A stretch of DNA of 32,909 bases from Rhodovulum strictum (GTDB lineage Bacteria > Pseudomonadota > Alphaproteobacteria > Rhodobacterales > Rhodobacteraceae): contig NZ_WJPO01000035.1 of NCBI RefSeq assembly GCF_009649175.1, positions 1 to 32,909 of the forward strand. Reading direction: 5' to 3'. Position 1 is the stretch's first letter. Every line of letters begins with the position of its first letter. Both the position numbers and the translations under genes were made by a program. Of this stretch, positions 7,758 to 31,510 are shown in pieces. Under the pieces are notes generated by a model. The model was not told the DNA's origin and ran no database searches. It saw nothing but the letters and a program-made list of their open reading frames with translations.

Positions 7758-7760
7758 CGT

Positions 7761-7775: not shown

Positions 7776-7893
7776 TGCCTAAAACTCGACGCATACCCCA
7801 TGCCGCCACAGAAGCGGTAACGACCGGTCAACATTCTGCTGCTTTCTTCGGCCAGGACAGCCGCGAACAAACCGACAGAGGTCGAACCGCATC

Positions 7894-9234: not shown

Positions 9235-9379
9235 GATCGGCCCGGCCGCCGCCAATCCCGGCGGCAATCGACCGGCCCGGCTTCGGCACCCGCCGGGGTC
9301 GAGACCGGGGGAATCGCCTCATCCGCCACCGCTCGCCCCCTTGCTTCCCTGAGTTGCAGAATTCATACGGCGCTTGACT

Positions 9380-9397
9380 CACGATCCCGTGATCGTG
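9380..9397. promoter_or_regulatory. Palindrome in the promoter region of the diheme cytochrome gene
   Basis: CACGATC (9380-9386) and GATCGTG (9391-9397) are perfect inverted arms with a 4-base centre, 85 bases before the cytochrome start. The word CGCTTGAC is repeated on both sides (9371 and 9401). A TTGACT just before it could be a -35. This looks like an operator for an unknown regulator. Confidence 0.45.
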
Positions 9398-9481
9398 TGA
9401 CGCTTGACCCCATGGTGCGGATGCCCACGGGGCGAAATGCTGTTCCCGGGACATTTCTACCGCTGTTCAGGGAGGGAACGG

Positions 9482-11469: not shown

Positions 11470-11686
11470 GCCGCCGGACAGGCTGTCGGACCCAGCGCCG
11501 CTGATGCCCTTGTCACACGCGATGCCCGGGCGATTCGGCCGACAGGCGGGAAGCCCGGGTAGCCCCCCGGCACGCGGCATCTGCAAAGACGACTGACAGG
11601 GCGCCCTGGATCGGGCCATATCGTCCCGCGCGAATCGCCCGGCCGCGGGCGGGGCATCGACGCAAGGCAGAGGGCAGGACGCTGGC

Positions 11687-13600: not shown

Positions 13601-13608
13601 ACCCCGGC

Positions 13609-14595: not shown

Positions 14596-15866
14596 GCGGG
14601 TTCCTCCGTCCGGGCCAGCAGATCGTCGAGCGTCTCGACCAGAAGATCGGCATTCTCGCGCGAAAAGGGCAAGGGGGGGCGGATCTTCAGCGTGTTCATG
14701 TACCGCCCGATGCGGCCGGTCAGGATACCGCGCAGGCGCAGCCCCTCGACCAGCCGCTCGGCGAATCCGGTGGCCGGGCTGCCGTCGGGATGGACAAACT
14801 CGGCGCCCAGGAACAGCCCCGCGCCGCGTGCCTCGGCCAGAAGCGGATGGCGCAGCGCGCGCAGCCGGGCCAGCAGATGCGCCCCGACATCGCGCGCATT
14901 CGCGACCAGCCCTTCCTCCTCCAGCACATCCAGCGTGGCCAACGCCGCCGCGGCCGAAACCGGATTGCCGCCGAACGTGTTGAAATACCCGAAAGCGGTG
15001 CGGAAATCGGCCATGATGTCTGGCCGCGTCACCACCGCGCCGACCGGATGGCCGTTTGCCATCGGCTTGCCCAGCGTCACCACATCGGGCGCAAATCCCA
15101 GCCGCTCATGGCCCCAGAACGCATCGCCCAGCCGCCCGAACCCCGGCTGCACCTCGTCGGCCAGGATCAGCCCGCCCGCGCGCCGGATGACGGCAACCGT
15201 CGGGTCCAGAAACCCCCTGGGCAGCGTGGGGAAGCCCTCGTTCGCGAAGAACGGGCAAAGCATGAACCCGGCAAAGCCCTGGCCGGTATCCTCCAGCTCG
15301 GCGATGGCGCGGGCGACATTTGCGGCAAAGGCTGTGGCCTGCGCCTCGGGGCTGCCGCCCAGCGGGGTCAGGCTTTCGGGGGCGGGGACAAGGCGCACAT
15401 GGGCGGGATAGCCGCCGATGGGCGGGCGGCGCGTCGAGAGTTGGCTGACAGCAGAGGTGTTGCCGTGATAGGTGTTGTCGGTCGCGATCAGCCCGCGCGC
15501 GCCGGTCGCCGCCTGCGCCATGCGTAGTGCAACATCATTCGCCTCGGACCCGGTGCAGACCATGATCGCCTGGCTCAGCCCATGGCCCAGCGTCGCGGTC
15601 AGCCGCTCGATATAGTCCAGGATGGCGGTGTGCAGATAGCGCGTGTGGGTGTTCAGCGTTGCCGCCTGCCGGGCAATGGCCTCGACCACGCGGGGGTGGC
15701 AATGGCCGACATGGGGCACGTTGTTATAGGCGTCCAGATAGCGCCGACCCGAGGCATCCCATAGCCAGACCCCCTCGCCGCGCACCAGATGAACCGGTTC
15801 GGCATGGAAGGTGGGCACGTTCGGCCCCATCAGCCGGGCGCGGCGCTCAATCAGGGTTTCGCTCAT
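14592..15866 (-). CDS. Class III PLP aminotransferase-fold phospho-lyase, AGXT2L-like (424 aa)
   Basis: The enzyme uses pyridoxal phosphate; the Schiff-base lysine is probably Lys267 in VTLGKPMANGHPVG and the pyridine-nitrogen aspartate is Asp237 in ILADEVQPGFGRLG. The substrate-end motif AYNNVPHVGHCHPRV (46-60) and NTHTRYLH (72-79) are typical of the AGXT2L group, whose human members are phospho-lyases of phosphoethanolamine and 5-phosphohydroxylysine. The start at 15864-15866 has GAGGAGG 3 bases upstream and skips a nine-residue extension. The downstream kinase gene overlaps by 4 bases, so the two form a kinase-then-lyase route. The exact substrate cannot be read from the sequence. Confidence 0.8.
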   Translation of the reverse strand: MSETLIERRARLMGPNVPTFHAEPVHLVRGEGVWLWDASGRRYLDAYNNVPHVGHCHPRVVEAIARQAATLNTHTRYLHTAILDYIERLTATLGHGLSQAIMVCTGSEANDVALRMAQAATGARGLIATDNTYHGNTSAVSQLSTRRPPIGGYPAHVRLVPAPESLTPLGGSPEAQATAFAANVARAIAELEDTGQGFAGFMLCPFFANEGFPTLPRGFLDPTVAVIRRAGGLILADEVQPGFGRLGDAFWGHERLGFAPDVVTLGKPMANGHPVGAVVTRPDIMADFRTAFGYFNTFGGNPVSAAAALATLDVLEEEGLVANARDVGAHLLARLRALRHPLLAEARGAGLFLGAEFVHPDGSPATGFAERLVEGLRLRGILTGRIGRYMNTLKIRPPLPFSRENADLLVETLDDLLARTEEPA

Positions 15867-15929
15867 GGCCTCCTCGCCCGACTTGCGCCCCAATCTGGAA
15901 CCGGGGCGCGGGGCTTGGCAAGAGCGAGT

Positions 15930-16928
15930 TCAGCCGAAACCCGGCGCAAGCCGGATTTCCCCGGTCACGATCCCGCGCCAGTTCCGGATCGGCCCGCCCA
16001 GCCGCCGAAGTGTCGCCGGGTGGTCGGGGTCAAGCACGCCCAGCCGGATCAGGAGTCCCGCGATGGCGGCCTCGGCGGCGCGAGTGGCGCCATCCTCGAT
16101 CTTGACGGCGACGCCAAGGCGCCGGTCCGGCAGGATCGCGACAAACACCCCCTCGGCCCCGGTCTTGACCGCAACACGGCCATCCATGGCACGCATCAGC
16201 TCGGTGCAGGCCCGCCCCTCGCCCGCCACCAGATCGGGATGGGCCAGCATCGCCCCTGTCAGCCGCGCGGCGGCGCGGGTGCGGGGTTCGGCGGCATCGG
16301 GCCGGGCATTCGCAAAGACCGCCATGGCGCGGGCAAGGCCGTGCATGGTCGTCGCGAAATTGGGAGCCGAACAGCCGTCGATGCCCAAACACGGACTCGG
16401 CTGCCCTGTCACCGCCTCGAACGCGGCGCGGATGGCGCGCTGCACGGGATGGCCCGGATCGTTGTAATCGGACCCCGCGCCCAGATGGCGCGCCAGCGTC
16501 AGGAAACCCGCATGCTTGCCCGAGCAATTGTTGTGCAACTGGCTTGGCGCCTCGCCCGCGAGCAGCATCCGCCTGCGCTCGGCACGATCACGGCTGGGCT
16601 GCGCGCCGCAAAGCAGATCGGCCTCGGACAGTCCCAGCCGGTCAAGCCACGCGGCGACAAGCGTCACATGAACCGGCGCCCCTTCGTGCGAGGCACAGGC
16701 CAGCGCCAGTTCGGCATCGTCCAGACCCGCCGCATCGGCCGCGCCACTTTCGACCAGCGGCAGCGCCTGGATCATCTTGACCGAAGACCGCGGATAGATC
16801 ACCGCGCCCGGATCGCCCCAGGCATCCAGAACCGCGCCCGTGCCGTCGCAGATCACCGCATGCCCGCGATGGCGCGATTCGACCATGCCGCTGCGCCAAA
16901 GCTCGACCAGTGCGACCGCCTCGGCCAT
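15930..16928 (-). CDS. L-asparaginase II family protein (332 aa)
   Basis: The protein matches the asparaginase II family (PF06089; the Rhizobium etli type), unrelated to E. coli AnsA/AnsB, that hydrolyses L-asparagine to aspartate and ammonia. Diagnostic segments are SSVKMIQALPLVESGAA (about 45-61), ASHEGAPVH (about 81-89), HNNCSGKHAGFLTL (about 131-144) and CLGIDGCSAPNFATT (about 179-193). No signal peptide is present. The start at 16926-16928 has GGGGAGG about 6 bases upstream. It is followed, after 63 bp, by the aminotransferase-kinase pair on the same strand, so the three may form one amino-acid degradation operon. Confidence 0.88.
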   Translation of the reverse strand: MAEAVALVELWRSGMVESRHRGHAVICDGTGAVLDAWGDPGAVIYPRSSVKMIQALPLVESGAADAAGLDDAELALACASHEGAPVHVTLVAAWLDRLGLSEADLLCGAQPSRDRAERRRMLLAGEAPSQLHNNCSGKHAGFLTLARHLGAGSDYNDPGHPVQRAIRAAFEAVTGQPSPCLGIDGCSAPNFATTMHGLARAMAVFANARPDAAEPRTRAAARLTGAMLAHPDLVAGEGRACTELMRAMDGRVAVKTGAEGVFVAILPDRRLGVAVKIEDGATRAAEAAIAGLLIRLGVLDPDHPATLRRLGGPIRNWRGIVTGEIRLAPGFG

Positions 16929-21287: not shown

Positions 21288-21549
21288 GTGGCGCGCTAGT
21301 TAGCCCGTCTGTACGGGCTTCGCAAGGGGCTGTTGCCCTGAAAAGCCACCAATTCCATTGCCTGCCCCGGGATGTCGGTGACGCCAGTCCTGCCGGTCGG
21401 ATTCGCCACTAGCGACTGCGGGCAGCGATCCGGCCTGTGCCGATTCCTGGCGTGACCGCTGACCTGCGGCCCCCGACCTTTCAGACCGAAAGCGGGACGG
21501 GCCCAACCAGCTTGGTCGCCCCAAGCACATGAGAGGAAGATTGGAACTT
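21288..21549. other. Gene-free host flank left of the mobile element
   Basis: Between tRNA-Val and the left attachment site I see no gene. In particular, no secE is present on the minus strand, although secE-nusG often lies beyond the tRNA-Trp of related bacteria. Confidence 0.4.
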
Positions 21550-21572
21550 AACGGCCTGGCAGGGGCGGAGGG
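21550..21572. repeat. Left attachment site (attL), 23-bp direct repeat
   Basis: The 23 bases starting AACGGCCTGGCAGGGG are identical to 31428-31450. Of these, 16 match the 3' end of tRNA-Trp including its CCA. The match stops sharply on both sides (T/G before, C/A after). Confidence 0.9.
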
Positions 21573-21684
21573 CGGCACAGTCTTCCACGAAAACAAGGGC
21601 TTGGGTTGTCCAACCTCCAACGGCCGGGGCATTGAAAGCATTGGCGAAAATTCGCCTTTGTCCAACCGTATCCGGACCCCTGAA

Positions 21685-21732
21685 AATGAAAACCCCGGCG
21701 CGCTGGCGGGCGCAACCGGGGCTCTTTTCATT
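21685..21732. terminator. Bidirectional terminator at the left end of the element
   Basis: AATGAAAA CCCCGG (21685-21698) pairs with CCGGGG (21716-21721), then, after a CTC bulge, TTTTCATT (21725-21732). The flanking A- and T-tracts make it usable in both directions, insulating the element from the host. Confidence 0.75.
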
Positions 21733-21797
21733 GATCGGCAGATCAAGTCCCAAGACTACCACCGGCAAGGGCCGAAAGCAAGCGAGCCCCTTATTTC

Positions 21798-21818
21798 GGT
21801 TCCTCAAATTGAGGAACC
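21798..21818. promoter_or_regulatory. Perfect palindrome near the left end, candidate operator
   Basis: GGTTCCTCAA (21798-21807) and TTGAGGAACC (21809-21818) are perfect 10-base arms around one A. It lies before the first gene of the element, so it may be the site of an activator or repressor. It does not share sequence with the operators at 29811-29854. Confidence 0.45.
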
Positions 21819-21888
21819 GCCCACACGGGGCAACGCAGAGGTTACGCCCAACGACCGCCTCGAGGACCGCCATAGGCGCGCCGTTCGC

Positions 21889-22254
21889 TTGCTTGGCCAT
21901 GCCTTGACCAGCAACAACGGAGCGGGCTGGCACGCTGCCGCCTTTGTCTGGGCGGCTCGACTTCATCAAGGCGAGCTTACCTGCCTTGCCGCCGCCGCCC
22001 TCCTGGCCCTTGAGCCCGACCTGCGCGAGGACGTATTCCGCCTGGTGCACTGGGGCGAAGTGTCAGGCGCGGGTGCGCCGATCCCGCCCTTTCTCAACGT
22101 CATGGACGAGGCCCGCTTCTGGGCTTCCATGGCTTCACGGCGAGAGGCCAAAGCCTATGCACTCGCCAGTTTCGAAGCCATGACCAAGATCGACCGTGCC
22201 GCCTTTCTTCGCCACATCACGAAGGAGGCTGTCCATGACGGACCGCGAGCTTGA
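21889..22254 (+). CDS. Unknown element protein, start unresolved (about 121 aa)
   Basis: I do not recognise the family. The C-terminal part looks truly coding: PPFLNVMDEARFWASMASR followed by AKAYALASFEAMTKIDRAAF and LRHITKEAV, preceded by a helical, Ala/Leu-rich segment. The frame stays open upstream to 21529, across the palindrome, the terminator and attL, but there is no ATG or GTG in the sensible region; the TTG at 21889 is the first standard alternative start after the terminator and has a poor ribosome binding site. A lost N-terminus is possible. It overlaps the next gene by 20 bases, and the strong GGAGG of that gene lies inside it, so the two are co-translated. Confidence 0.5.
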   Translation: MLGHALTSNNGAGWHAAAFVWAARLHQGELTCLAAAALLALEPDLREDVFRLVHWGEVSGAGAPIPPFLNVMDEARFWASMASRREAKAYALASFEAMTKIDRAAFLRHITKEAVHDGPRA

Positions 22255-22486
22255 CGAAATCCTGACCTTGCGCTGGCCCGTTCTTGTGCGCCGCGCGATG
22301 ATCGACGGGGACAAATGGACACGCTCATTCGTCCTGTCCATCGCCCGCAATGGCAAACGCCCGAACTGGCGGCCGACCCCCAAGCAAGAAGCCATCATGC
22401 GCCGCCTTCTCATGGATATGGCACAGCATGAGGACCAACCACCTGAAGTGATCGAAGATGAAGGAGAACTTTTCAGGTCCGCCTGA
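22235..22486 (+). CDS. Small unknown element protein (83 aa)
   Basis: The start at 22235 is supported by GAAGGAGG about 7 bases upstream. The sequence is helical and basic in the middle (SFVLSIARNGKRPNWRPTPK, about residues 31-50) with an acidic tail (DQPPEVIEDEGELF). Small proteins with an RP-x-W-R-P-T-x-K-Q motif occur in alphaproteobacterial prophages, but I know no function; DNA binding or a role in replication is possible. It is the last gene before the 450-bp structured region that precedes the terminase genes. Confidence 0.6.
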   Translation: MTDRELDEILTLRWPVLVRRAMIDGDKWTRSFVLSIARNGKRPNWRPTPKQEAIMRRLLMDMAQHEDQPPEVIEDEGELFRSA

Positions 22487-22537
22487 TCGGAGAACCTGTG
22501 TCCGCTGGACGGTTCAGACGGTGGCGGCGGAGACACA

Positions 22538-22543
22538 TATATG
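22538..22543 (+). promoter_or_regulatory. Possible -10 element before the structured region
   Basis: TATATG in the sequence ACACATATATGG is a fair -10 in an otherwise very GC-rich stretch; a poor TTCAGA lies 19 bases upstream. A transcript from here would start just before the predicted RNA fold. Confidence 0.25.
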
Positions 22544-22585
22544 GCCTGCCACGGGGCGCGCGCATAGGCCAACCCGAGCCCGAAA

Positions 22586-22748
22586 GGTCGAACGGGGCGC
22601 GCCGGGGGAAGGAACACCCCCGCAAGTAGCGACCAAGCCGCACGCAGTTCCCTAGAGACGTGCGGCGCCCAAGCGATGGACCGGCTCCGAGGGGCAGTCT
22701 TCACGCGACGGGCTAGGGACCAACCTGCGCAAACAGCGCGGGCTGGTC
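22586..22748 (+). ncRNA. Candidate structured RNA with pseudoknot, upstream of terminase genes
   Basis: Several perfect helices are packed into 163 bases with no coding signal. GGTCG (22586-22590)/CGACC (22630-22634) encloses CGGGGG/CCCCCG (22603-22608/22617-22622). GCCGCACG (22637-22644)/CGTGCGGC (22659-22666) has a loop containing TCCCTAG (22649-22655), which is exactly complementary to CTAGGGA (22713-22719), forming a pseudoknot. A last hairpin is GACCA/TGGTC (22718-22722/22744-22748) with an inner GCGC/GCGC stem. I do not recognise a known RNA family. The strand is inferred from the gene direction. Confidence 0.45.
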
Positions 22749-22816
22749 GCCCTATGCCCTTCGCTCCGAACCTCACCAAGGGGCAACACCAGTTTCTAAG
22801 TAGGAAAGGCCCACAG

Positions 22817-22924
22817 ATGAACACGCGAACCAGACGGACAGCGACCCCCGCAAGGGTCCTTTTCGCGCCGGGCGTATGCGGTGGGCGGGGGCCCGAAGTG
22901 TCAGCCTCTGCAAAAAATCAATAG
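22817..22924 (+). CDS. Possible 35-aa leader peptide before the small terminase
   Basis: An ATG at 22817 has AGGAAAGG 7 bases upstream and opens a 35-codon frame beginning MNTRTRRTATPARVLF. It is basic and has no relatives I recognise. It runs across the cos-like sequence and ends 13 bases before the small terminase start. It may be chance. Confidence 0.25.
   Translation: MNTRTRRTATPARVLFAPGVCGGRGPEVSASAKNQ
22841..22867 (+). other. Lambda-cos-like sequence / hairpin upstream of small terminase
   Basis: GCGACC (22841-22846) followed shortly by CCGC, then GGGT and TTTTCGCG (22860-22867) recalls the lambda cosN core GGCGACCTCGCGGGTTTTCGC in word order and spacing, and lies 71-97 bases before a Nu1-like gene as cos does in lambda. 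The same bases form a hairpin GACCC (22843-22847)/GGGTC (22854-22858) followed by CTTTT, so a terminator of the structured RNA is an equally good reading. Confidence 0.4.
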
Positions 22925-22937
22925 GGGGTAAAGACTT

Positions 22938-23444
22938 ATGCGGATCATGCGGGAACTTCCGGGGCTTGAAGGTGGCCGCGCCGTTGCGCGCATCGGAGGC
23001 GCTGACCTCTGCAACCTGCTGCGCATCACCCCCGCCGCCCTCACTGGCCTGGTGAAACGCGACCTTGCCGTGAAGCTGGGCCATGATGCATATGATCTGG
23101 CCGAGACAGTGGGCCGGTACGTCGAACATCTGCGCGGCACGGCGTCCGGGCGCGGGGGCGAAGAACAGGTGCGGACCCTGACCGGCGAACGCGCCCGGCT
23201 GGCCCGCGCCCAAGCGGACGCCCAAGAGCTGAAGAACGCGACCCTGCGCGGCGAGCTGGTGCCAGCTACCGAAGTCGAACGCGCCTGGGCGGACACCCTG
23301 CGCGGCCTTCGTTCTCAGTTGCTGGCCGTGCCGTCGCGCATCCGCGCCGATCTGGGGAACCTCACCCCGGCGGACGTGGCCCAGATCGACCGCATCATGC
23401 GCGACACTCTGGCAGACCTGGGCGAAGCCGATGCCGACGATTGA
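22938..23444 (+). CDS. Terminase small subunit, Nu1-like (168 aa)
   Basis: The small terminase recognises the packaging site and recruits the large subunit. The N-terminal part (about residues 22-45, GADLCNLLRITPAALTGLVK) is a winged HTH like that of lambda Nu1, and the middle ERARLARAQADAQELKNATL (about 83-102) is the characteristic helical linker, followed by LVPATEVERAWADTLRGLRS as in the Nu1 family. AGGGGG lies about 10 bases before the ATG; a second ATG is three codons in. It overlaps the large terminase by 14 bases, which is standard for a terminase pair. It fixes this element as a lambda-type (cos) packager by family. Confidence 0.8.
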   Translation: MRIMRELPGLEGGRAVARIGGADLCNLLRITPAALTGLVKRDLAVKLGHDAYDLAETVGRYVEHLRGTASGRGGEEQVRTLTGERARLARAQADAQELKNATLRGELVPATEVERAWADTLRGLRSQLLAVPSRIRADLGNLTPADVAQIDRIMRDTLADLGEADADD

Positions 23445-25212
23445 GCAAATCCAGCGCAAGGCCCTGCGCGCCCTGATACCGCCGCCCCGCCTGCGCCTGT
23501 CCGACTGGATCGAGGCCGAAGTGTGCCTTCCCGCTGGTGTCACGGCCCAGCCCGGCCCCGTCCGCCTCTGGCCCTTCCAGCGCGAGATTGCCGACGCCAT
23601 AGGCGATCCGCTGATTGAGCGTGTAACGCTGGTGAAGCCGGTTCGGGTGGGTTTCACCACGCTCTTGACCAGCGCCGTTGCCAGCTTCGTGGCGAACGAA
23701 CCCGCGCCCATTCTCTGCCTCTTGCCCGCCGAAGCCGATTGCCGGGATTACATGGTGTCTGACGTTGAACCGATCTTCGGCGCTTCCCCAGCCGTTGCCG
23801 CCGCCCTATCGGACGAAAAGGACGAAGCCGGGCGCAACACCCTTCTTTCGCGCCGATTCCCCGGCGGATCGCTCAAGATCGTGGCCGCGAAGGCCCCCCG
23901 CAACTTGCGCCGCCACAACGTCCGGATCCTGTTCATTGACGAAGCGGACGGCATGGAAGCCACCGCCGAAGGCTCGCCCATCCTCCTGGCCGAGCGCCGC
24001 ACCCTGTCCTTTCCAGATCGCAAGATCGTCATGGGCTCGACACCGGTTCACGAAGAAACGAGCCACGTCCTGCGCGCCTTCGCCCAGTCCGACGCCCGCC
24101 TTTTCGAAGTGCCCTGCCCCGAGTGTGGCAGCTTCACCGAAATTCAGTGGGCGCACATCATCTGGGACGAGGGCCAACCGGAAACGGCCCGCTTCAAGTG
24201 CCCCCATTGCGCCGCCGAAGTGCCCGAACGGCACAAGCCCCAGATGATCGCGCAAGGCCACTGGCGAGCCACACGGCCCGAAGTGCAAGGCCATGCGGGC
24301 TTCCGGCTCAACGCCCTGGTATCGCTTCACGCGAACGCGGCATGGGCGAAGCTGGCGGCGGAATTCATCGCGGCCAAGGATGACCCCAGCACCCTACAAA
24401 CCTTCGTCAACACCATTCTGGGGCAGGGCTGGCGTGCCGAAGGTGACGAGCTGGACGAAGGCCAGCTTTTGAACCGGACCGAGCCCTTCGGCCTGGACAA
24501 TGTGCCCGCCGAAGCCCTGGTGCTAACCGCAGGAATCGACGTTCAACACGACCGCCTCGAGGCCACCTTTCTGGGCTGGACGGAAGACGGCGCGGCGCTG
24601 GTCCTGGGGCATTCCGTGATCTGGGGCAGCTTCGAAGACGAAGACACATGGCGCGAGCTGGACGAACTCTTGCGCACCCGGTTTCGGCACCAGCTGGGCG
24701 GGCGCATCGGCATTGATGCCGCCGCCATCGACGCGGGCGACGGCGCGTCAATGCATCATGTGGTTGCCTTCGCAACGCCCCGGACCCGAGCCAAGGTGCT
24801 GGCCATCAAGGGAGCGGGCGGCAACAGGCCAATTATCGAGCGTGCCGGATCGAAGACCAAGACCGGCGCGCGCCTCTGGATTGTCGGCGTTGACACCGTG
24901 AAGGCCCAGCTGTTCGGCCGCCTGCCCCGCCCCGATGCAGTCCGGTTCTCTGCCGATCTGCCGCCGGTGTGGTTCGAACAGCTGGCAAGCGAACGCGCCG
25001 TGATCCGGTATCGGCGCGGCCAGCCCGTGCGGAGTTTCGAGCGCATACCGGGGAGAAAGGCCGAGGCGCTCGATTGTGTGGTCTATGCAACCGCGGCCCG
25101 GCAGATCGTCAACCCAGACTTCGCCAGACGGAAGGACGACCTGGCGACCGACCGCGCCCCCGCGCCTCGAGGCGGACCCGTGCTGCAATCCACCTGGATG
25201 CAAAGGAGATAG
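23431..25212 (+). CDS. Terminase large subunit, GpA family (593 aa)
   Basis: The large terminase is the ATP-driven motor that loads DNA through the portal and cuts it. The variant Walker A of the GpA family is VKPVRVGFTTLL (68-79), Walker B is RILFIDEADGM (165-175) with Asp170/Glu171, and a coupling motif follows as IVMGSTPVHEE. A zinc-finger-like pair CPECGS and KCPHCAAEV follows (about 228-270). The C-terminal nuclease part has AGIDVQHDRLEATFLGW and GRIGIDAAAIDAGDG with the acidic residues expected of the RNase-H-like fold. The length is slightly below lambda gpA (641 aa). It appears intact. Confidence 0.93.
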   Translation: MPTIEQIQRKALRALIPPPRLRLSDWIEAEVCLPAGVTAQPGPVRLWPFQREIADAIGDPLIERVTLVKPVRVGFTTLLTSAVASFVANEPAPILCLLPAEADCRDYMVSDVEPIFGASPAVAAALSDEKDEAGRNTLLSRRFPGGSLKIVAAKAPRNLRRHNVRILFIDEADGMEATAEGSPILLAERRTLSFPDRKIVMGSTPVHEETSHVLRAFAQSDARLFEVPCPECGSFTEIQWAHIIWDEGQPETARFKCPHCAAEVPERHKPQMIAQGHWRATRPEVQGHAGFRLNALVSLHANAAWAKLAAEFIAAKDDPSTLQTFVNTILGQGWRAEGDELDEGQLLNRTEPFGLDNVPAEALVLTAGIDVQHDRLEATFLGWTEDGAALVLGHSVIWGSFEDEDTWRELDELLRTRFRHQLGGRIGIDAAAIDAGDGASMHHVVAFATPRTRAKVLAIKGAGGNRPIIERAGSKTKTGARLWIVGVDTVKAQLFGRLPRPDAVRFSADLPPVWFEQLASERAVIRYRRGQPVRSFERIPGRKAEALDCVVYATAARQIVNPDFARRKDDLATDRAPAPRGGPVLQSTWMQRR

Positions 25213-25331
25213 GACAGGGCAGGGACTGCCCCCGGCTTCTGAAGGGTTGGCCGGAAAAGTCCCCCGTTACTCGGAGAGTGGGAAAACCCCGAGAGCGCGC
25301 GGACCCGGTCAGTCGCGGCGCGCGATCATCC

Positions 25332-25361
25332 TTGACAAAGGTCATTATTTAACCTTATTAG
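25332..25361 (+). promoter_or_regulatory. Promoter candidate before the HTH-portal-capsid genes
   Basis: TTGACA (25332-25337) is a perfect -35; TATTAG (25356-25361) follows after 18 bases, in an AT-rich island unlike the surroundings. It would drive the HTH protein and the head genes separately from the terminases. AAGGT and ACCTT arms inside the spacer could be an operator. Confidence 0.6.
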
Positions 25362-25399
25362 GAGTCGAAAACAAACATCATATCCTGTGAGGGCGCGCA

Positions 25400-25906
25400 A
25401 TGTCGTGGAGCATCGACCAAATGACCATTTCGACCGAGGCCCTTGCGGGCTTCCTCGACGTGAAGACCGAGACCTTTCGCACCTGGCAGAAGCGCGACGG
25501 GCTTCTGCGCGACGGCGCGCCCGGACGTGGCAAGGCAGCCGCCTTCGGCTTCGCGCAGTGCCTGAAAGCCTACGTCGCGAAGCAGTTGAACGGTATTGGG
25601 GCGAATACCGGCGCATCCGCCATCTTTGCCAATCATTGCGATGCCTTGGGCGCCTTCATGGCAGGCAAGCCGCTTGTGGTGCCCTTCCGCGATGGCAAGC
25701 CCAGCCTCGTCCATGATCCTGAACGCGACATGGTGCTGCACTTGCCGCTTGAGGAGTCCGGCTTGGCGCTGGCGGATTGGTTCTGCCATCACATCGCGGC
25801 CGCAATCGACCCGGAAACCGGGCGCCCTGGCGGCACCGAAGCCTATAACGCCGCGAAGCTCGACTTCGAACAGCGCGTGAACCTCCATCGGCTCAACGCC
25901 CAATGA
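25400..25906 (+). CDS. HTH-domain protein between terminase and portal (168 aa)
   Basis: The N-terminal third resembles a MerR-type or small-terminase-like HTH: STEALAGFLDVKTETFRTWQ (about 11-30) followed by a wing with RDGAPGRGKAAAFGF. The rest (about 65-168) is an unrecognised alpha/beta domain with HDPERDMVLHLPLEESGLAL. In lambda this place holds gpW, which here lies after the capsid gene, so this is an unusual insertion. GAGGG lies about 7 bases before the ATG, and it has its own promoter candidate. It overlaps the portal start by 4 bases (ATGA). It could be a regulator, or a second DNA-recognition subunit for packaging. Confidence 0.65.
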   Translation: MSWSIDQMTISTEALAGFLDVKTETFRTWQKRDGLLRDGAPGRGKAAAFGFAQCLKAYVAKQLNGIGANTGASAIFANHCDALGAFMAGKPLVVPFRDGKPSLVHDPERDMVLHLPLEESGLALADWFCHHIAAAIDPETGRPGGTEAYNAAKLDFEQRVNLHRLNAQ

Positions 25907-27228
25907 TCCACATTCGGAACTTCATCCGCCGCCTTGTGGCCCCGGCCTACGTTCGCCAGATCGAGGCGGGCGGCGGCGGCTGGCGGTTCCAAGGTGTCCC
26001 GATGCTTCCCGCGCCGCAGCAAAGCGCCCTTGCGGCCCGTGGCCCGGCGAAGGCGCGAGCGGCGGCGTTGTCCATGAACAACCCAATTGCCGCCCGCGCC
26101 GTCGAAGCATGGGCGGCAGCCCTTGTCGGCAAGGGCTGGCAGGTCCAATCGCAGCACCCTGACCGACAGATCGCGCGAGTCCTGAATGATGAGCTCGAGG
26201 CCCTTGTGTGGCCGCTGATGCCCATGATCGCCCGCGCCGTCGTCCGCGACGGAGAATGCTTCGTTCGCATGTTGTCAAGCCCGGACGGCTTCCGCCTGTC
26301 CCTGCTACCGGCGGACCAGATCGACCCGGCCATGACTCGTGACCTTGGGGACGGCGCGCGGATCGTTGCGGGTGTGGAGTTCGACGGATCGGAGCAAGTG
26401 ACCGCCTATCACGTCTTGCCCGACGCCCCCGGCACCCCGTTCGGAACCTATGGCGAAACGCTGCGCATCCCCGCGTCGGAGATCCTGCATGTCTTCGACC
26501 GGCAGTTTCCGGGGCAGGTTCGCGGCGTGACATGGCTCGCCCCGGTCCTGTTGAAGCTGGCAGACTATGACGCCGCATCCGACGCCATGCTGATGAACCT
26601 CAAGGTTCAAGCTCTTTTCGCGGGCTTTATCACCGACCTTGAAGGCGGCACCGCAGGATTCGACGGCACCGAGAAAGCGGGAACCGTGAATGTCAGCCTC
26701 GAGCCTGGCGCAATGCGCATGCTGCCGCCCGGCAGCGACGTGAAGTTTTCCCAGCCATCCGGCGGGCTTTCCCAGCAAGTCGAATTCATCAAATCGCAGC
26801 TGCATGAAATCGCCGCTGGGCTTGGCCTGATGTATGAACAGCTTTCCGGCGACCTGTCGCAAGCGAATTACAGCTCCGCCCGGTTCGGCCTGCTGGAATT
26901 CCGCCGCCGCGCCGAAATGCTGCAACGAACGCTGATCGAAGGCCAGCTTCTGCGCCCGCTCTGGCGGCACTGGATCGGCTGGAAAGCTCTTGCCGGGGAA
27001 ATCAGCCCCGAAGACGCAACCGCCCCCGATTACCGCGCCGTGCGCTTCGTCCCGCCGGGCTGGCAGTGGGTGGACCCCCTCAAGGAGGTGAACGCCGAGG
27101 TGCGCGCTATCGAGGCGGGCCTGAAATCCCGCGCCGAAGTCGTCGCGGGCCGGGGACGCGATCTTGACGAAGTGGATCAGGAGATTGCCGGGGACACACG
27201 GAGACCCGCGCAGGAAGGTGACGCATGA
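25903..27228 (+). CDS. Portal protein, lambda type (441 aa)
   Basis: The portal is the dodecameric ring at one capsid vertex through which DNA enters. The sequence follows the lambda gpB/Phage_portal_2 family: ALSMNNPIAARAVEAWAAAL (about 45-64), WPLMPMIARAVVRDGECFVR (about 101-120), IPASEILHVFDRQFPGQVRG near 190-210, and LSGDLSQANYSSARFGLLEF (about 315-334), which is a strong family signature. At 441 residues it is somewhat shorter than lambda gpB (533), mainly at the termini. It is coupled by 4-base overlaps to the HTH gene before it and the protease-capsid gene after it. Confidence 0.92.
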   Translation: MIHIRNFIRRLVAPAYVRQIEAGGGGWRFQGVPMLPAPQQSALAARGPAKARAAALSMNNPIAARAVEAWAAALVGKGWQVQSQHPDRQIARVLNDELEALVWPLMPMIARAVVRDGECFVRMLSSPDGFRLSLLPADQIDPAMTRDLGDGARIVAGVEFDGSEQVTAYHVLPDAPGTPFGTYGETLRIPASEILHVFDRQFPGQVRGVTWLAPVLLKLADYDAASDAMLMNLKVQALFAGFITDLEGGTAGFDGTEKAGTVNVSLEPGAMRMLPPGSDVKFSQPSGGLSQQVEFIKSQLHEIAAGLGLMYEQLSGDLSQANYSSARFGLLEFRRRAEMLQRTLIEGQLLRPLWRHWIGWKALAGEISPEDATAPDYRAVRFVPPGWQWVDPLKEVNAEVRAIEAGLKSRAEVVAGRGRDLDEVDQEIAGDTRRPAQEGDA

Positions 27229-29009
27229 CGATACATCTGCGCGCGGCCACGCCGCGCCCCTCGACCCTTGACGCGAACCTGCGGACCGTCGAAGCCATCG
27301 TTTCGACCGGCGCGCCGACAGCCCGCGCCGGATATGTCGAACGCCTCGACCTTTCCGGCGCCGACCTTTCCAGGCTCATCGGCGGGCCGGTCCTGGACGG
27401 GCACCGCGCCGAAAGCACCCGCGACCAGCTGGGCATTATCGAAGCTGCCGAGCTGCGCTCCGAAGGGCTCTGGGTCCGCATCAAGTTTCGCTCGACCGCC
27501 GCCGCGCAAGCCGTCCTGTCCGACATTGGCGATGGAACCCTGCGCGGCCTGTCCATCGGCTATTCGGTTCAGCAATGGCGCGAAGGTCAACAAGAAAACC
27601 GGCGGGTGCGAACCGCCGTCAAATGGACGCCCGTCGAAGTGTCCGTTGTCCCCATTCCGGCAGATGCCGGGGCTCACTTCCGAAATGGAGAATCCAGCAT
27701 GGAAAACGAAACCATCGAAACCACGACGCAACCGGCTGGCAACCTGACCCGCGCCGACATGAACCGGGAGATTCGCAGCATCGGGCAACTTGCCGGGCTT
27801 ACCGCCGAGTGGATCAATGGCCAGATCGACGCCGAGGCGACCCCCGAACAGGCGCGCGCCGCCGCCTTCGAAGAAATGGCAACGCGGCAGGCCCAGACCC
27901 GGACCCGCAGCGCACGGGCGGAAATCATCGCGGATCACAGCGACCCCGCCGTGATCGCCACGCGGGCCGGTGAAGCCCTGTTCGCCCGTTCGCACCCGGA
28001 GCACCAGTTGTCCGAACCGGCCCGCGCCCATGTCGGCCTGACCATTCCCGACATGGCCCGCGAATGCTTGCGCCGCGCGGGTATCTCGACCAGTGGCATG
28101 GCAACCGAAACGCTGGTCACGCGCGCCCTGCACACGACCAGCGATTTTCCCCTGATCCTGGGCGATGCCGTGAACCGCGAGCTGCGCCGGTCCTATCAGG
28201 CCCCGGTGTCCGGTGCCCGCCTTCTGGCCCGCCAGACCACGGCCCGTGACTTCCGGGCCAAGCGCCGCGCCATCCTGGGCGAAGCGCCCGAGCTCGAGAA
28301 GGTCAACGAGGGAGGCGAGTTCAAGCATGGCACTATTGACGAAGCCGCCGAAACCTACGCGGTGGCCACCTTCGGCAAGATCATCGCCATAAGCCGCCAA
28401 GCCCTGGTGAACGACGATCTGGGCGCGTTCACGACCGTTCCCGCCGCTATGGGCACCGCCGCGTTGAACTTCGAAGCGGCCCAGCTGGTGGCCAAGATCG
28501 AGGGCAACCCGCAAATGTCCGATGGTATCGCCGTCTTCGACGCAGACGGGCATGGCAACGCCAAGGCGGCAACGACAACCGGCGGTTTCTCCATGACCGA
28601 CGCCATCGCGGCAGACCTGGACGTGGCCCGAACCGCCATGCGCCGCAAGACCGGCCTGAGTGGCGCGCCGATCGACGTTGCTCCGCGCTATGTTCTGGCT
28701 CCGCCGGAACTCGAAACGGAGATGCAGAAGGCGCTTGCCGCCATTCAGGCGACCAGCTCCGAAGACTTCAACCCCTTCTCGACGCTGGCGCTTGTGGTTG
28801 AACCCCGCCTGACCTCGCAAACCCGCTGGTATGTGGTGGCAGACCCCGCGACGGTGGACGGCTTGGAATACGCCTATCTCGAGGGCGCGCCCGGTCCCCA
28901 GATCGAAACCCGCGCGGGCTTCGAGGTGGACGGAACGCAAGTCAAGGTCCGGCTCGACTATGGGTGCGGCTGGGTGGATCACCGCGGCTGGTATCGGGTG
29001 GGCACCTGA
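27225..29009 (+). CDS. Prohead protease / major capsid protein fusion (594 aa)
   Basis: One polypeptide joins the U35-type HK97 prohead protease and an HK97-fold coat protein. In the protease (about residues 1-155) the likely catalytic His60 is in VLDGHRAES and Ser110 in LRGLSIGYS. A helical scaffold-like segment follows (about 160-235), then the coat protein (about 240-594) with FPLILGDAVNRELRRSYQAP, AIISRQALVNDDLGAF-like sequence and the E-loop/A-domain pattern. The fused protease could free the coat by self-cleavage. An internal ATG at 27699 (residue 159) has GGAG 8 bases upstream and would yield a coat-only product. The stop overlaps the start of the gpW-like gene (TGATG). Confidence 0.92.
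   Translation: MTIHLRAATPRPSTLDANLRTVEAIVSTGAPTARAGYVERLDLSGADLSRLIGGPVLDGHRAESTRDQLGIIEAAELRSEGLWVRIKFRSTAAAQAVLSDIGDGTLRGLSIGYSVQQWREGQQENRRVRTAVKWTPVEVSVVPIPADAGAHFRNGESSMENETIETTTQPAGNLTRADMNREIRSIGQLAGLTAEWINGQIDAEATPEQARAAAFEEMATRQAQTRTRSARAEIIADHSDPAVIATRAGEALFARSHPEHQLSEPARAHVGLTIPDMARECLRRAGISTSGMATETLVTRALHTTSDFPLILGDAVNRELRRSYQAPVSGARLLARQTTARDFRAKRRAILGEAPELEKVNEGGEFKHGTIDEAAETYAVATFGKIIAISRQALVNDDLGAFTTVPAAMGTAALNFEAAQLVAKIEGNPQMSDGIAVFDADGHGNAKAATTTGGFSMTDAIAADLDVARTAMRRKTGLSGAPIDVAPRYVLAPPELETEMQKALAAIQATSSEDFNPFSTLALVVEPRLTSQTRWYVVADPATVDGLEYAYLEGAPGPQIETRAGFEVDGTQVKVRLDYGCGWVDHRGWYRVGT
27699..29009 (+). CDS. Possible nested capsid product from internal start (436 aa)
   Basis: Within the fusion gene, ATG 27699 is preceded by GGAG with an 8-base spacer, exactly at the border between the protease and the scaffold/coat part (product beginning MENETIETTTQ). 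Internal starts of this kind supply scaffold or coat in excess over protease in other phages, such as lambda C/Nu3. This is inferred from the sequence only. Confidence 0.4.
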   Translation: MENETIETTTQPAGNLTRADMNREIRSIGQLAGLTAEWINGQIDAEATPEQARAAAFEEMATRQAQTRTRSARAEIIADHSDPAVIATRAGEALFARSHPEHQLSEPARAHVGLTIPDMARECLRRAGISTSGMATETLVTRALHTTSDFPLILGDAVNRELRRSYQAPVSGARLLARQTTARDFRAKRRAILGEAPELEKVNEGGEFKHGTIDEAAETYAVATFGKIIAISRQALVNDDLGAFTTVPAAMGTAALNFEAAQLVAKIEGNPQMSDGIAVFDADGHGNAKAATTTGGFSMTDAIAADLDVARTAMRRKTGLSGAPIDVAPRYVLAPPELETEMQKALAAIQATSSEDFNPFSTLALVVEPRLTSQTRWYVVADPATVDGLEYAYLEGAPGPQIETRAGFEVDGTQVKVRLDYGCGWVDHRGWYRVGT

Positions 29010-29224
29010 TGCCCATTGAGCCCGAGGAACTTGTTTCCCTGCGCGATGCCCTTCTGAGGGCGCGCGCGACGGGCACCCGCTCCGTTGATTATGACGGCAA
29101 GCGTGTGACCTATGCGACCGATGCCGAAATGGCGACGGCGCTGGCCGACCTTGAGCGGCGCATCAACGCATCAACGCGCCCGCGCCCTGGTGCGGTTCGC
29201 TTCACGACCTCCAAAGGAGTCTGA
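29009..29224 (+). CDS. gpW-like head-completion (head-tail joining) protein (71 aa)
   Basis: This small protein has the size and plan of lambda gpW: a helix (EELVSLRDALLRARATG), a beta-hairpin (RSVDYDGKRVTYA, about residues 24-36) and a second helix (AEMATALADLERRINAS). gpW plugs or extends the portal after packaging and prepares the head for tail attachment. In lambda the gene precedes the portal; here it follows the capsid gene. The ATG shares its A with the previous stop. Its presence, with no tail genes, suggests heads ready for another phage's tail. Confidence 0.75.
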   Translation: MPIEPEELVSLRDALLRARATGTRSVDYDGKRVTYATDAEMATALADLERRINASTRPRPGAVRFTTSKGV

Positions 29225-29225
29225 C

Positions 29226-29561
29226 ATGAAGAACTTCGTGCAAACCGGTGACACTCTGACATTCACCGCCCCCGCCCCCGTTGTTTCCGGGCAGGGCGTG
29301 ACCATGGGAGCGCTGTTCGGCGTCGCCACCACGTCCGCCGCCGCTGGCGTGCCCTTCGAGGCAGCCCTTTCCGGCGTCTATGTGCTGCCCAAGGCGGCAG
29401 ACAACATCGCCGCCGGTGCCGCGCTCTACTGGGACGCCGCCGAAGGTCAGGTTACGACCGACGACGATGACGGCGCGAACCGCCTGGTGGGCGCCGCGAC
29501 CGAGAATGCTGGCACCAGCGCCGCCACGGTTCCCGTCAGGCTGAACAGCATCGCCGCCTGA
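29226..29561 (+). CDS. DUF2190-type capsid decoration protein (111 aa)
   Basis: The sequence matches the DUF2190 family of small phage structural proteins: MKNFVQTGDTLTFTAPAPVV at the start, GQGVTMGALFGVA, then ALSGVYVLPKAAD and AALYWDAAEGQVT, ending in VPVRLNSIA. Members are thought to decorate or cement the capsid surface. The start at 29226 has AAAGGAG about 8 bases upstream and follows the gpW-like stop directly. It is the last head gene; the repressor gene converges with a 10-bp gap. Confidence 0.8.
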   Translation: MKNFVQTGDTLTFTAPAPVVSGQGVTMGALFGVATTSAAAGVPFEAALSGVYVLPKAADNIAAGAALYWDAAEGQVTTDDDDGANRLVGAATENAGTSAATVPVRLNSIAA

Positions 29562-29571
29562 CGCAGCACGA

Positions 29572-29802
29572 TCACGGACGGCGCAGCCGGACCCCCGGCC
29601 CGCCGCCATTCGGATCAATGAATTCAACCCCCGCCGCTTCGAGTGCGGCACGGATCGCGGAAATGGCTTCGGCAGATGCACTTATCGCCCCTTGTCCCTC
29701 AGCACGCTTCACAGTCGGAATTGATAAGCCGGTGGCGTGCGAGAGCTGGGCCTGCGACCAGCCTAGAAGTGATCTTGCTGCGCGCAGCTGGTTCCCTGAC
29801 AT
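29572..29802 (-). CDS. Small Xre-family repressor (76 aa)
   Basis: A single HTH fills most of the protein: NQLRAARSLLGWSQAQLSHA (4-23) and TGLSIPTVKRAEGQGAI (24-40). The tail ending GVRLRRP is short, so there is no cI-like cleavage domain; induction would need a separate anti-repressor, as in phage satellites. AGAGGGAAC lies directly before the ATG. It is divergent from the integrase operon, and two palindromes lie between. The minus-strand orientation opposite the head genes is the usual arrangement for an immunity gene. Confidence 0.85.
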   Translation of the reverse strand: MSGNQLRAARSLLGWSQAQLSHATGLSIPTVKRAEGQGAISASAEAISAIRAALEAAGVEFIDPNGGGPGVRLRRP

Positions 29803-29810
29803 GTTCCCTC

Positions 29811-29828
29811 TTGATCCCTTTGGATCAA
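29811..29828. promoter_or_regulatory. Operator-like palindrome 1 and -35 of the integrase operon
   Basis: TTGATCC (29811-29817) and GGATCAA (29822-29828) are perfect arms with a 4-base centre. The left arm also forms the -35 (TTGATC) of a promoter whose -10 is TAATAT (29833-29838) at 16-base spacing, so bound repressor would block it. Confidence 0.65.
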
Positions 29829-29836
29829 AGTGTAAT

Positions 29837-29854
29837 ATGATCTTTATGGATCAT
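29837..29854. promoter_or_regulatory. Operator-like palindrome 2 over the -10 region
   Basis: ATGATC (29837-29842) and GATCAT (29849-29854) share the TGATC half-site with palindrome 1 but have a 6-base centre. It overlaps the end of the -10 and the expected transcription start of the rightward operon. Confidence 0.6.
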
Positions 29855-29877
29855 AACCAGCAAACGGAGCAACGACA

Positions 29878-30150
29878 ATGACCCATCTGACGACCGCCTC
29901 ACCCAAACCGTGCAACTATGTGATGGCATTCGAGGCGACCTATGAAACCATTCACCACCTGAAGGCGCTGGCCATCACCCTGCACGATCAGACCATCGAA
30001 AGCGCGGCAATCGACTTTTCGCACCGCGATGCAGCGACGCTCATGCCCATCATCGACATCATCAATGAGAAGATCCAACTGCTCGAGGCTCGGCACGATG
30101 CCGAACACGACGCGTGGAGCAGGGAACGGCAGGAGGCAAAGAGCGCATGA
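29878..30150 (+). CDS. Unknown small element protein (90 aa)
   Basis: I do not recognise this protein. It is predicted mostly helical, with YETIHHLKALAITLHDQ and LMPIIDIINEKIQLLEARHD, and a charged, coiled-coil-like C-terminal end. It is the first gene of the rightward operon under the two palindromes and overlaps the next gene by 4 bases (ATGA). CGGAG lies about 8 bases before the ATG. Its position suggests an early function, such as excision control, anti-repression or helper interference, but nothing in the sequence decides. Confidence 0.6.
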   Translation: MTHLTTASPKPCNYVMAFEATYETIHHLKALAITLHDQTIESAAIDFSHRDAATLMPIIDIINEKIQLLEARHDAEHDAWSRERQEAKSA

Positions 30151-30323
30151 ACCGCGCTGCCACCATCAAGCAGGACGAAATCAAGCGCGTCGTAAAGGCG
30201 GCGATGTCGGCCGGCCTGATGGTGGCACGGGTTGAGGTGGACACGATCAACGGCAAGGTTGTCGTCATTGCTCAGGGCGCATCCGACGATACGGAAAACC
30301 CCTGTGACAGGCTCCTGCGATGA
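30147..30323 (+). CDS. Small protein preceding the integrase (58 aa)
   Basis: A helix (QDEIKRVVKAAMSAGL), a strand pair (VARVEVDTINGKVVVIAQG) and a conserved-looking tail ENPCDRLLR make up the protein. Similar small proteins directly before integrase genes occur in alphaproteobacterial prophages; a recombination-directionality (excisionase-like) role is possible from place and size only. ATGA overlaps on both sides couple it to its neighbours. Confidence 0.6.
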   Translation: MNRAATIKQDEIKRVVKAAMSAGLMVARVEVDTINGKVVVIAQGASDDTENPCDRLLR

Positions 30324-31414
30324 TCCGCCGCCGCCGCAACCCATTCCCCGGCGTCTCTCGCGTCACCGACCGACACGGCCGGGTGCGCTGGCGTTTCCGG
30401 CGCAAGGGGTTCTCCGCGTATCTGCCGGGGCCGTATGGCTCGGCCGAGTTTCGCGCGGCCTATGAGGCGGCAGTTGCCGAGGTGAAGACCCCCGCCCCGA
30501 CCGCACGCTTTCCCCATGGCTCGCTCGGCTGGCTCATCACGCATTACCTCGCGTCCCCGCGCCACGCTCGAAAGGCCGCGGCGACCCGCGACACGCTGCG
30601 CCGCGAACTCGACTGGCTGCGCGAGGTGGCGGGCGATCTGCCGGTGACGGGTTTCCGGGGACGCCATATCGAGGCGCTGATGGCGAAGAAACCGGGACCG
30701 GCCGCACAGAACCGCGTGCGCGCCAACCTGTCCTTGATCTTCAATCATGCGATCCGCCTTGAGCTGATCGCGGCCAATCCGGTTCGGGGCACAGACAAGG
30801 TTGCCCACAAGTCGGACGGCTATCACACATGGACCGAAGCGCAGATCGCCCGGTTCCTCGATTTTCACGGGCCGGGCACGAAAGCACGGCTGGCGATGCT
30901 CCTGGCGCTGAACACCGGCGCGGCGCGGCAAGACCTCGCCAAGCTCGGCTGGCAGAACGTGACCGGCGGGCGAATCGCGTATCGACGCGGCAAGACGGGC
31001 GTTGAGGCTGATTTGCCGATCCTGCCCGAACTGGCGGAAGAACTGCGGCGCGTCCCGCGCGACCAGATGCTTTTCCTTCCGACGCAGGCCGGGGCGGCAC
31101 ACACCGCGGCCGGGTTCGGCGCATGGTTCAAGGATCGCGCCGTTGAGGCCGGGATCGACGTTCCATCCGCGAACGTACACGGGCTGCGGAAAGCTGGCGC
31201 GACCAAGCTTGCCGAGAACGGCGCGACCGAATGGGAGATCGCCGCCTTCCTCGCTCACGAGAACACGAAAATGGCCGCTGTCTATGTCCGCAAAGCATCG
31301 CGGTCAAAGCTCGGCACCGCCGCCCTAGCCCGACTCGATGGGCCGAAAAGGGAACAAAGCTTGTCCAACCTGTCGGCGGGGTTGGACAAATCGGGCAAGA
31401 AAAGCGAGGGATAA
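30320..31414 (+). CDS. Tyrosine-recombinase integrase (364 aa)
   Basis: The enzyme would carry out site-specific integration at the tRNA-Trp gene. It has an N-terminal arm-binding part (RWRFRRKGFSAYLPGPYG), a core-binding helical domain (about 68-160), and the catalytic domain with Arg203 (TGAARQDLAKLGW), Lys225 (RRGKTGVEADLPI), His287-x-x-Arg290 (VHGLRKAGATKLAENG), His313 (LAHENTKMAAVYVRK) and the nucleophile Tyr322. All catalytic residues are present, so it should be active. It ends 13 bases before attR and is coupled to the upstream small gene. Expression is probably under the repressor at 29572. Confidence 0.93.
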   Translation: MIRRRRNPFPGVSRVTDRHGRVRWRFRRKGFSAYLPGPYGSAEFRAAYEAAVAEVKTPAPTARFPHGSLGWLITHYLASPRHARKAAATRDTLRRELDWLREVAGDLPVTGFRGRHIEALMAKKPGPAAQNRVRANLSLIFNHAIRLELIAANPVRGTDKVAHKSDGYHTWTEAQIARFLDFHGPGTKARLAMLLALNTGAARQDLAKLGWQNVTGGRIAYRRGKTGVEADLPILPELAEELRRVPRDQMLFLPTQAGAAHTAAGFGAWFKDRAVEAGIDVPSANVHGLRKAGATKLAENGATEWEIAAFLAHENTKMAAVYVRKASRSKLGTAALARLDGPKREQSLSNLSAGLDKSGKKSEG

Positions 31415-31427
31415 CATGACGTTACAG

Positions 31428-31450
31428 AACGGCCTGGCAGGGGCGGAGGG
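31428..31450. repeat. Right attachment site (attR), 23-bp direct repeat
   Basis: Identical to 21550-21572. It covers the last 16 bases of tRNA-Trp including CCA, plus 7 bases beyond, so integration leaves the tRNA whole. Confidence 0.92.
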
Positions 31451-31510
31451 ACTCGAACCCCCGGCCCTCGGTTTTGGAGACCGATGCTCTACCAACTGAG
31501 CTACACCCCT
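31435..31510 (-). tRNA. tRNA-Trp (anticodon CCA)
   Basis: On the minus strand the acceptor AGGGGTG pairs with CGCCCCT, followed by discriminator G and encoded CCA. The D-arm TAGCTCAGTTGGTAGAGC, the anticodon arm with loop CTCCAAA (anticodon CCA) and the T-arm GGGGGTTCGAGTCCCTC are canonical. It is the integration target of the element. Confidence 0.97.

Follow-up and report, generated by a model that had tools for sequence, protein, structure and literature searches.

The DNA analysed here (the window) is a 32,909-nt stretch of Rhodovulum strictum, NZ_WJPO01000035.1, in which a 9.9-kb element at 21550-31450 carries genes for a phage head and its packaging and is bounded by direct repeats at a tRNA-Trp gene (Table 1). 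From left to right we observe two small open reading frames (ORFs), the small (TerS) and large (TerL) terminase subunits, a regulator, a portal, a protease-capsid fusion, a gpW-type adaptor, and a decoration protein, followed by a divergent XRE gene, two further small ORFs, and a tyrosine integrase. The element is very probably an integrated, capsid-forming phage satellite that would borrow its tail.

Table 1. Features of the element and its integration site (window coordinates; dN/dS, ratio of nonsynonymous to synonymous substitution rates, relative to locus L139; AF2, AlphaFold2)
Feature	Position	Strand	dN/dS	Remarks
attL	21550..21572	+		23-bp exact copy of tRNA-Trp 3' end plus 7 bp
orf241, conserved part	21844..22254	+		predicted all-helical; AF2 pLDDT 83, pTM 0.44; true start uncertain
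orf96, conserved part (~83 aa)	22235..22486	+	0.21	follows orf241 in other satellites as well
candidate cos (packaging) site	22854..22915	+		directly upstream of terS
TerS, terminase small subunit	22938..23444	+	0.11	phrog_57, 1.5e-27
TerL, GpA type	23431..25212	+	0.13	ATPase and nuclease domains; PF05876/PF20454, ~1e-82
orf168, predicted MerR-type winged-helix regulator	25400..25906	+	0.20	in TerL-portal gap; AF2 pLDDT 91
portal protein, lambda family	25903..27228	+	0.09	PF05136, 7e-79
prohead protease-major capsid fusion	27225..29009	+	0.10	satellite-clade capsid; PF04586, PF25209 (7e-57), NF045541, trees
gpW-type head-tail adaptor	29009..29224	+	0.31	after capsid; phrog_2545, NF047331
decoration (cement) protein	29226..29561	+	0.20	PF09956, phrog_122
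XRE-type small repressor	29572..29802	-		other satellites have homologues (L035, 70% identity)
orf90	29878..30150	+		no homologue among loci collected
orf69, conserved part (57 aa)	30150..30323	+		directly before int; putative directionality factor
tyrosine integrase	30320..31414	+		PF00589, 2.7e-14
attR	31428..31450	+		second 23-nt direct repeat; overlaps tRNA-Trp 3' end
tRNA-Trp (cca)	31435..31510	-		integration target

Family matches and open frames bear out what an earlier note on this DNA had listed, namely, that both terminase subunits, the portal, the protease-capsid fusion, and the gpW-like and decoration genes are intact. The capsid scores 695 bits against NF045541 (cut-off, 525), an existing NCBIfam name for this capsid family as a protease-capsid fusion. 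The small repressor and the integrase with catalytic residues of the same list are likewise recovered, the former as an XRE match and the latter by PF00589, with HGLR at position 287 and Tyr322, which we take to be its catalytic motifs. To that list we add orf168, the sole gene of the window's TerL-portal gap, which is predicted to begin with a MerR-type winged helix; Foldseek returned CvkR, RacA, and CueR as weak matches, all with E values above 0.001. In addition, six small ORFs were tested for homologues in other tail-less elements, and all except orf90 have them. The first ORF, orf241, has its mechanical start at 21529, outside the element, with conservation starting near 21844, and other satellites have it too, in a slot that in many of them carries replication genes; its structure prediction pointed to no function. 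Finally, as the earlier note had remarked, tail, lysis, and replication genes are not recognisable: profile scans with PHROGs, Pfam, and NCBIfam gave no match to such families in the element (coverage was narrower for three genes: NCBIfam alone for the XRE gene, and Pfam plus NCBIfam for orf90 and orf69).

The clean att repeats initially reported are exact over 23 nt, against a chance maximum of 14 nt in 20 shuffles, and the 20-nt att core, with one mismatch allowed, occurs just in the two element-flanking copies in the whole 3.8-Mb genome of the window (G000 in our labels, with contigs C13, C15, C25, and C35; L-numbers denote loci). The tRNA-Trp stretch has a match in each of the 16 genomes of the genus, that of the window among them. 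The window's left flank is kept in none of the eight same-genus tRNA-Trp neighbourhoods read, and no simple empty site is demonstrable. In genomes G006 and G008 the tRNA-Trp side leads to nusG- and rpl-type genes, whereas the left neighbours in the window (21288-21549) are a tRNA-Val and a dapD-like gene (all named by eye); since nusG lies on a separate contig (G000:C15:49707) and not beside tRNA-Trp as in those two genomes, the chromosome of the window genome has been rearranged at this site. A 4.3-kb element at tRNA-Trp in another genome of the genus (L362, G008:C33, 2327-6642) has an integrase 96% identical to that of the window, together with a TerL of another family (PF03354) and a PF05135 connector; judged by this identity, one integrase is common to different head elements. 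Integrase fragments 70 to 76% identical to the window's also adjoin tRNA-Trp in two same-genus genomes (L136/L363 in G005, L137/L364 in G014) and are possible traces of former insertions.

Relatives were collected as 192 loci, copies included, of which 160 were added from GTDB contigs (the best 80 of 87 relatives) and IMG/VR (the best 80 of 492). Capsid relatives at E ≤0.001, phage-type ones included, occur in 33 of 147 related genomes, and TerL at E ≤1e-100 in 28 of 394 genomes, a set that represents 393 genera of the family. The neighbourhoods share a plan of TerS, TerL, variable gap, portal, capsid, gpW, decoration protein, integrase, and tRNA. We labelled 95 loci as satellites with an integrase, 21 as satellites without a recognised integrase, 23 as tailed phages, and 7 as probable phages. 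In the raw cross-table, a TerL-portal gap of at least 600 nt goes together with an integrase near the capsid and no tail match in 95 loci, and a shorter gap goes together with a tail in 23; a long gap with a tail and a short gap with an integrase near the capsid are both absent (integrases were searched for with satellite queries only). The other 74 loci are incomplete in one respect, having a long gap with neither mark (50), a short gap with neither (7), or a portal unplaced or absent (17). After dereplication, the gap measures 694 to 3,151 nt in 79 satellites versus 252 to 476 nt in 14 phages, a difference that arises partly by construction because the satellite label used this gap, which is not so for the raw cross-table. 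Tube, tape-measure, and baseplate matches (tblastn library) number 0 among these 79 satellites; gpW follows the capsid in 77 and lies between TerL and portal in none, and the integrase is downstream in 62.

Boundaries also recur. Twenty-three members are bounded by repeats (9.9 to 15.0 kb; median, 11.8 kb), and in 19 of them the repeat is longer than any in 20 shuffles; these 19 sit at Trp, Cys, Tyr, Ser, Phe, Lys, Met, Glu, or Gln tRNAs (for L114 no tRNA-Cys gene was called). The earlier note had proposed looking for the same gene order at tRNA-Trp in related genomes: gene order and tRNA-type boundaries do recur in other genera, and the part that did not hold is the constancy of tRNA-Trp. A family confined to tRNA-Trp had been expected and did not emerge. 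Among GTDB satellites, 33 belong to Rhodobacterales, 6 to Hyphomicrobiales, 2 to Sphingomonadales, and 1 each to Caulobacterales and Acetobacterales, with 5 unplaced.

Satellites and phages also separate in trees of TerL and capsid, which come from quick searches with SH-aLRT supports, no bootstrap, and long phage branches. The TerL tree (104 rows) requires 5 changes for the satellite/phage split versus 22.7 in shuffles; the window pairs with L139 (91% identical) inside all-satellite clades of 15 rows (SH-aLRT, 95) and 31 rows (85), and two phage clades as well as L218 are nested among satellites. In the capsid tree, one branch (SH-aLRT, 96) divides 85 satellites, 7 of them from a second family, from 19 tailed or probably tailed phages, with 1 change versus 17.7 in shuffles; a build with 86 satellites (L285 included) gave the same split at 97. 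The one unlabelled row on the satellite side of that build, L016, is an element in decay that retains a fragment of an integrase and matches no tail gene, and L218 and L286 were unplaceable. The window and phage L267 are 70% identical in TerL and 31% in capsid and portal, whereas a second satellite of the same genome, L041, shows the reverse (TerL 36%, portal 41%, capsid 50%), which indicates that the capsid marks satellites and the packaging module moves. By these comparisons TerL is exchanged between satellites and phages. Because phage TerLs nest among satellite TerLs, the trade perhaps ran from satellite to phage; the root of the tree is weak and the direction uncertain, as the chosen outgroup does not form one side of any branch.

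The phage origin of the head genes, the tailed phages with a TerL 65 to 70% identical, and the existence of broken relatives could all point to a decayed prophage, that is, a siphophage from which deletions removed the tail, lysis, and replication modules, leaving an immobile head cassette. We consider this highly improbable, given that no tails occur anywhere in the satellite capsid group, gpW is relocated in 77 of 79 satellites, boundaries recur at many tRNAs, and all but one (orf90) of the six small ORFs recur as homologues elsewhere among tail-less elements. Close relatives with tails, the observation that the earlier note had named as speaking for a simple deletion, and in particular tailed relatives with the same capsid, were looked for and number 0 of 79 for tube, tape-measure, or baseplate matches, with the capsid trees split; neither relaxed selection nor broken head genes were seen in the window, where the frames are open and all eight genes tested against one relative, L139, have dN/dS of 0.09 to 0.31, by which measure the head genes are under purifying selection. 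The trees, the recurrent boundaries, and dN/dS led us to reject a prophage remnant, and the cross-table, boundaries, and capsid split indicate that the element is not a recent prophage deletion. The original preference for a satellite is thus sustained by the absence of tails in the 79, the all-satellite 31-row TerL clade (85), and the recurring boundaries.

Purifying selection would also be expected of a domesticated particle maker, whose heads the host uses itself, in the manner of a gene transfer agent (GTA) or a tail-less container, with no parasitism. Rhodobacterales are known for GTAs, and the tails of the resident prophages resemble those of phage RcDormio, which has a "GTA TIM barrel" protein. 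This reading is nevertheless extremely unlikely in view of the integrase, att repeats, varied tRNA sites, and a patchy distribution, with TerL in 28 of 394 genomes, all marks of a mobile element.

Directly upstream of terS, most loci carry the motif GGGTCCTTCC, a spacer of ~20 nt, and GGGGG. In the stretch scanned upstream of terS, GGGTCCYY is present in 56/61 and 13/17 satellites (together 69/78), 14/14 phages, 1/2 probable phages, and 24/28 unclassified loci, and the plain hexamer in 33/122 shuffled stretches (mononucleotide shuffle); the hexamer match displayed for L267 and for L272 is at the start of terS and is flanked differently. The window's own site is one base off GGGTCCYTYC and by itself is not rarer than chance when a mismatch is allowed; the case for the motif rests on conservation. 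GGGTCC is absent within 400 nt upstream of terS in the C13 and C25 prophages, RcDormio, BZS1 (less sequence), and Pyei1, and the position of the motif agrees with the annotated cosL of BZS1. We take the motif as a candidate cos site.

Some relatives appear to exist as circles. Exact 127-nt terminal repeats are found in 2 of 80 IMG/VR contigs, L279 and L297, and none of 47 further contigs is circular; as sequence features, such repeats show circular molecules or concatemers, not particles. L279 is a 9,739-bp circle with TerS, TerL, portal, capsid, gpW, and a primase and no integrase, and L297 is an 11,371-bp circle with an integrase, whose attP gave no match to the tRNA 3' ends examined. L287 has only an offset 100-nt overlap, and L285 is not a closed circle. 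L279, L285, and L287 are integrase-less, circular or circularly arranged, ~9.7 to 10 kb long, and endowed with a primase (Prim-Pol/D5 in L287), and possibly represent plasmid-like satellites.

Relatives fill the slot left of terS with HTH_36 proteins, AAA_25 proteins, or primases of the Prim-Pol/PriCT/D5 type, and a primase-like gene occurs in 45 of 79. The TerL-portal gap contains restriction-type genes in some members, including a NotI-like nuclease with a C5 methylase (L041), a type IIG enzyme (L037), and GmrSD (L120); we observe this hotspot in L036, L037, L041, and L120, and such genes lie upstream of the capsid in L358. The accessory scan covered 100 of the 104 non-core ORFs of at least 95 aa in the 23 bounded members, the remaining four being a two-gene pair in each of L112 and L118, and the families are those among the matches listed (the best 25 of 90 for PHROGs, 25 of 38 for PADLOC, and 25 of 27 for Pfam). 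As this is part of the families, the tblastn library is the main basis for calling relatives tail-less; Phage_attach was matched once among the accessory ORFs. The pair itself (~510-530 and 270-290 aa) matches between two different satellites (L112, 2631-5020; L118, 12338-14736; re-oriented coordinates), in a layout that is presumably like an IS21-type insertion. The second tail-less head element of the window genome, L041 (G000:C13, ~1557-16100), belongs to another satellite family and comprises an integrase, an 817-aa primase, a TerS-like gene, TerL, the NotI-like restriction enzyme and C5 methylase, portal, capsid (sharing 50% identity with that of the window), gpW, and decoration protein.

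Tailed prophages are co-resident with the element, as the earlier note had suggested checking. The window genome has three siphophage tail tube copies, on C13, C25, and C35, with tail modules mapped alongside; C13 and C25 hold lambda-order prophages with RcDormio-like tails, and C35, 17.5 kb long, has a tail module alone. The window gpW is 50 to 54% identical to those of the resident prophages (68 aa), versus 42% for L267 (43 aa) and 45% for RcDormio (51 aa). A gene like the prophage's 210-aa head-to-tube gene was found in 5 of 192 loci (2 of 79 dereplicated) plus L326, as close to the prophage's as to L267's or slightly closer, with DUF6441 in L148. We tentatively name these lambda-order siphoprophages with RcDormio-like tails (two resident, plus the tail-only fragment) as the likeliest helpers, an assignment that leans to the doubtful side. 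A satellite taking its tail from a host GTA and not from a phage might also be imagined, as RcDormio and the resident prophages pair a gpW-bearing head with a "GTA TIM barrel" tail; GTA heads carry adaptors other than the gpW type and the window gpW resembles prophage gpW, which makes this scarcely credible.

For the phage-tail-borrowing satellite, gene content, boundaries, the absence of tail matches, conservation, selection, the satellite-only capsid group, the cos-like motif, and the circular relatives are read from sequence, and we infer helper dependence and a life cycle. The integrase would insert the element into the tRNA-Trp 3' end, leaving the gene unbroken, and the XRE repressor would hold it silent until an active helper phage led to its excision as a circle. 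Replication would be supplied by the helper or by orf241/orf96. The late genes (TerS, TerL, portal, protease-capsid, gpW, and decoration) would make the head, the element's own terminase would pack its DNA from its own cos site, and the gpW adaptor would offer the packed head to a stopper and a tail made by the helper, giving a chimeric particle that may deliver the satellite to a new cell.

Several points weigh against this interpretation. The element is known here from its DNA, and a replication gene is not recognisable in it. Tailed phages with 65 to 70% identical TerL exist (L267, L284, L290), so packaging genes alone are no satellite marker. The satellite label itself demanded a gap above 600 nt, the tail library consists of 11 proteins from four loci, and 42 of the 192 loci were unclassifiable and 4 dropped. 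Four of the 23 bounded members (L107, L108, L113, and L125) have repeats that do not exceed the chance length, and decayed members exist (L127, with TerL interrupted, and L358). The helper match is weak, as the portal leans to the prophages too (36% versus 30 to 31%) and the prophage capsids are unmatched. Finally, the tail tube of the prophages is present in 14 of 28 satellite genomes versus 85 of 366 others (Fisher p 0.003), as counted by eye and with prophage load and relatedness ignored.

Capsid-forming phage-inducible chromosomal islands (cf-PICIs) were reportedly first described by Alqurainy et al. in 2023. We propose, and regard as evenly poised, that the elements seen here form one old lineage of satellites that encode heads and lack tails, spread throughout the class Alphaproteobacteria and independent of cf-PICIs, with its own capsid group, a relocated gpW, freely swapped replication and defence modules, integrase-less circles, and a TerS-TerL-cos unit traded with tailed phages. 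If true, this second lineage with another head toolkit would mean that head-making with tail-borrowing evolved more than once and is common in Alphaproteobacteria, here across Rhodobacterales, Hyphomicrobiales, Sphingomonadales, Caulobacterales, and Acetobacterales. For direct tests, the window element provides a named site, a candidate for cos, and resident prophages as candidate helpers, and the terminase exchange makes it testable whether satellites return genes to phages. Our literature search found nothing linking Rhodobacterales with capsid-bearing phage satellites or Rhodobacteraceae with PICI satellites; in the literature on capsid-forming phage satellites, Alphaproteobacteria were met in a reference list.

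AlpA, which has a MerR-type winged-helix fold, gave no family match in the window; orf168 is a predicted MerR-type winged helix, and L047 has a weak HTH_17 match. According to the articles cited here and below, cf-PICIs encode heads and packaging, rely on helpers for tails, and have an HNH endonuclease in the packaging module (PMC10690885); an AlpA homologue and Pri-Rep are further features (PMC10448857), and 900 published capsids were collected by family PF05065 (PMC13230959). The element is alike in having its own capsid, protease, portal, one connector (gpW type), and both terminases, in being integrated with an integrase and flanking att sites, in matching no tail family, and in a capsid that stands apart from phage capsids in trees, as in cf-PICIs (PMC13230959). 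It differs in its PF25209 capsid fused to an S78 protease, its GpA-type TerL, its gpW after the capsid, and its alphaproteobacterial host. Profile scans of the window gave no match to HNH endonuclease or Pri-Rep families, and the capsid is unmatched by PF05065 at E ≤0.01, matching PF25209, PF04586, and PF10124. The earlier designation as a PICI-type satellite thus stands for the capsid-forming content and falls for the HNH, Pri-Rep, and PF05065 markers.

Of other systems, RcDormio (MW677510) shares the GpA-type TerL, gpW, protease-capsid fusion (33 to 38% identical), and decoration protein; it is, however, a phage of 41.6 kb that has genes for head-tail attachment, minor tail, tube, and tape measure and places gpW between TerL and portal. 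P4, PLE, and PICMI satellites have no capsid of their own and hijack that of the helper (see also PMC11389934), whereas the window has its own capsid and portal. MulchRoom and MiniFlayer, which are satellites with virulent Streptomyces phages as helpers, have direct terminal repeats, and are described as unlike other satellites, are similar in having head and packaging genes and no obvious replicase, and MulchRoom is thought to use its helper's tail (PMC10690885). The cf-PISP satellite-plasmids of Vibrio are capsid-forming circular episomes (PMC13230959) and may be compared with L279 and L287, whereas L287 carries a Prim-Pol/D5 primase and cf-PISPs a PF05065 capsid and ParA/RepA. The mode of life proposed for the window element is that of cf-PICIs, with a different head toolkit.

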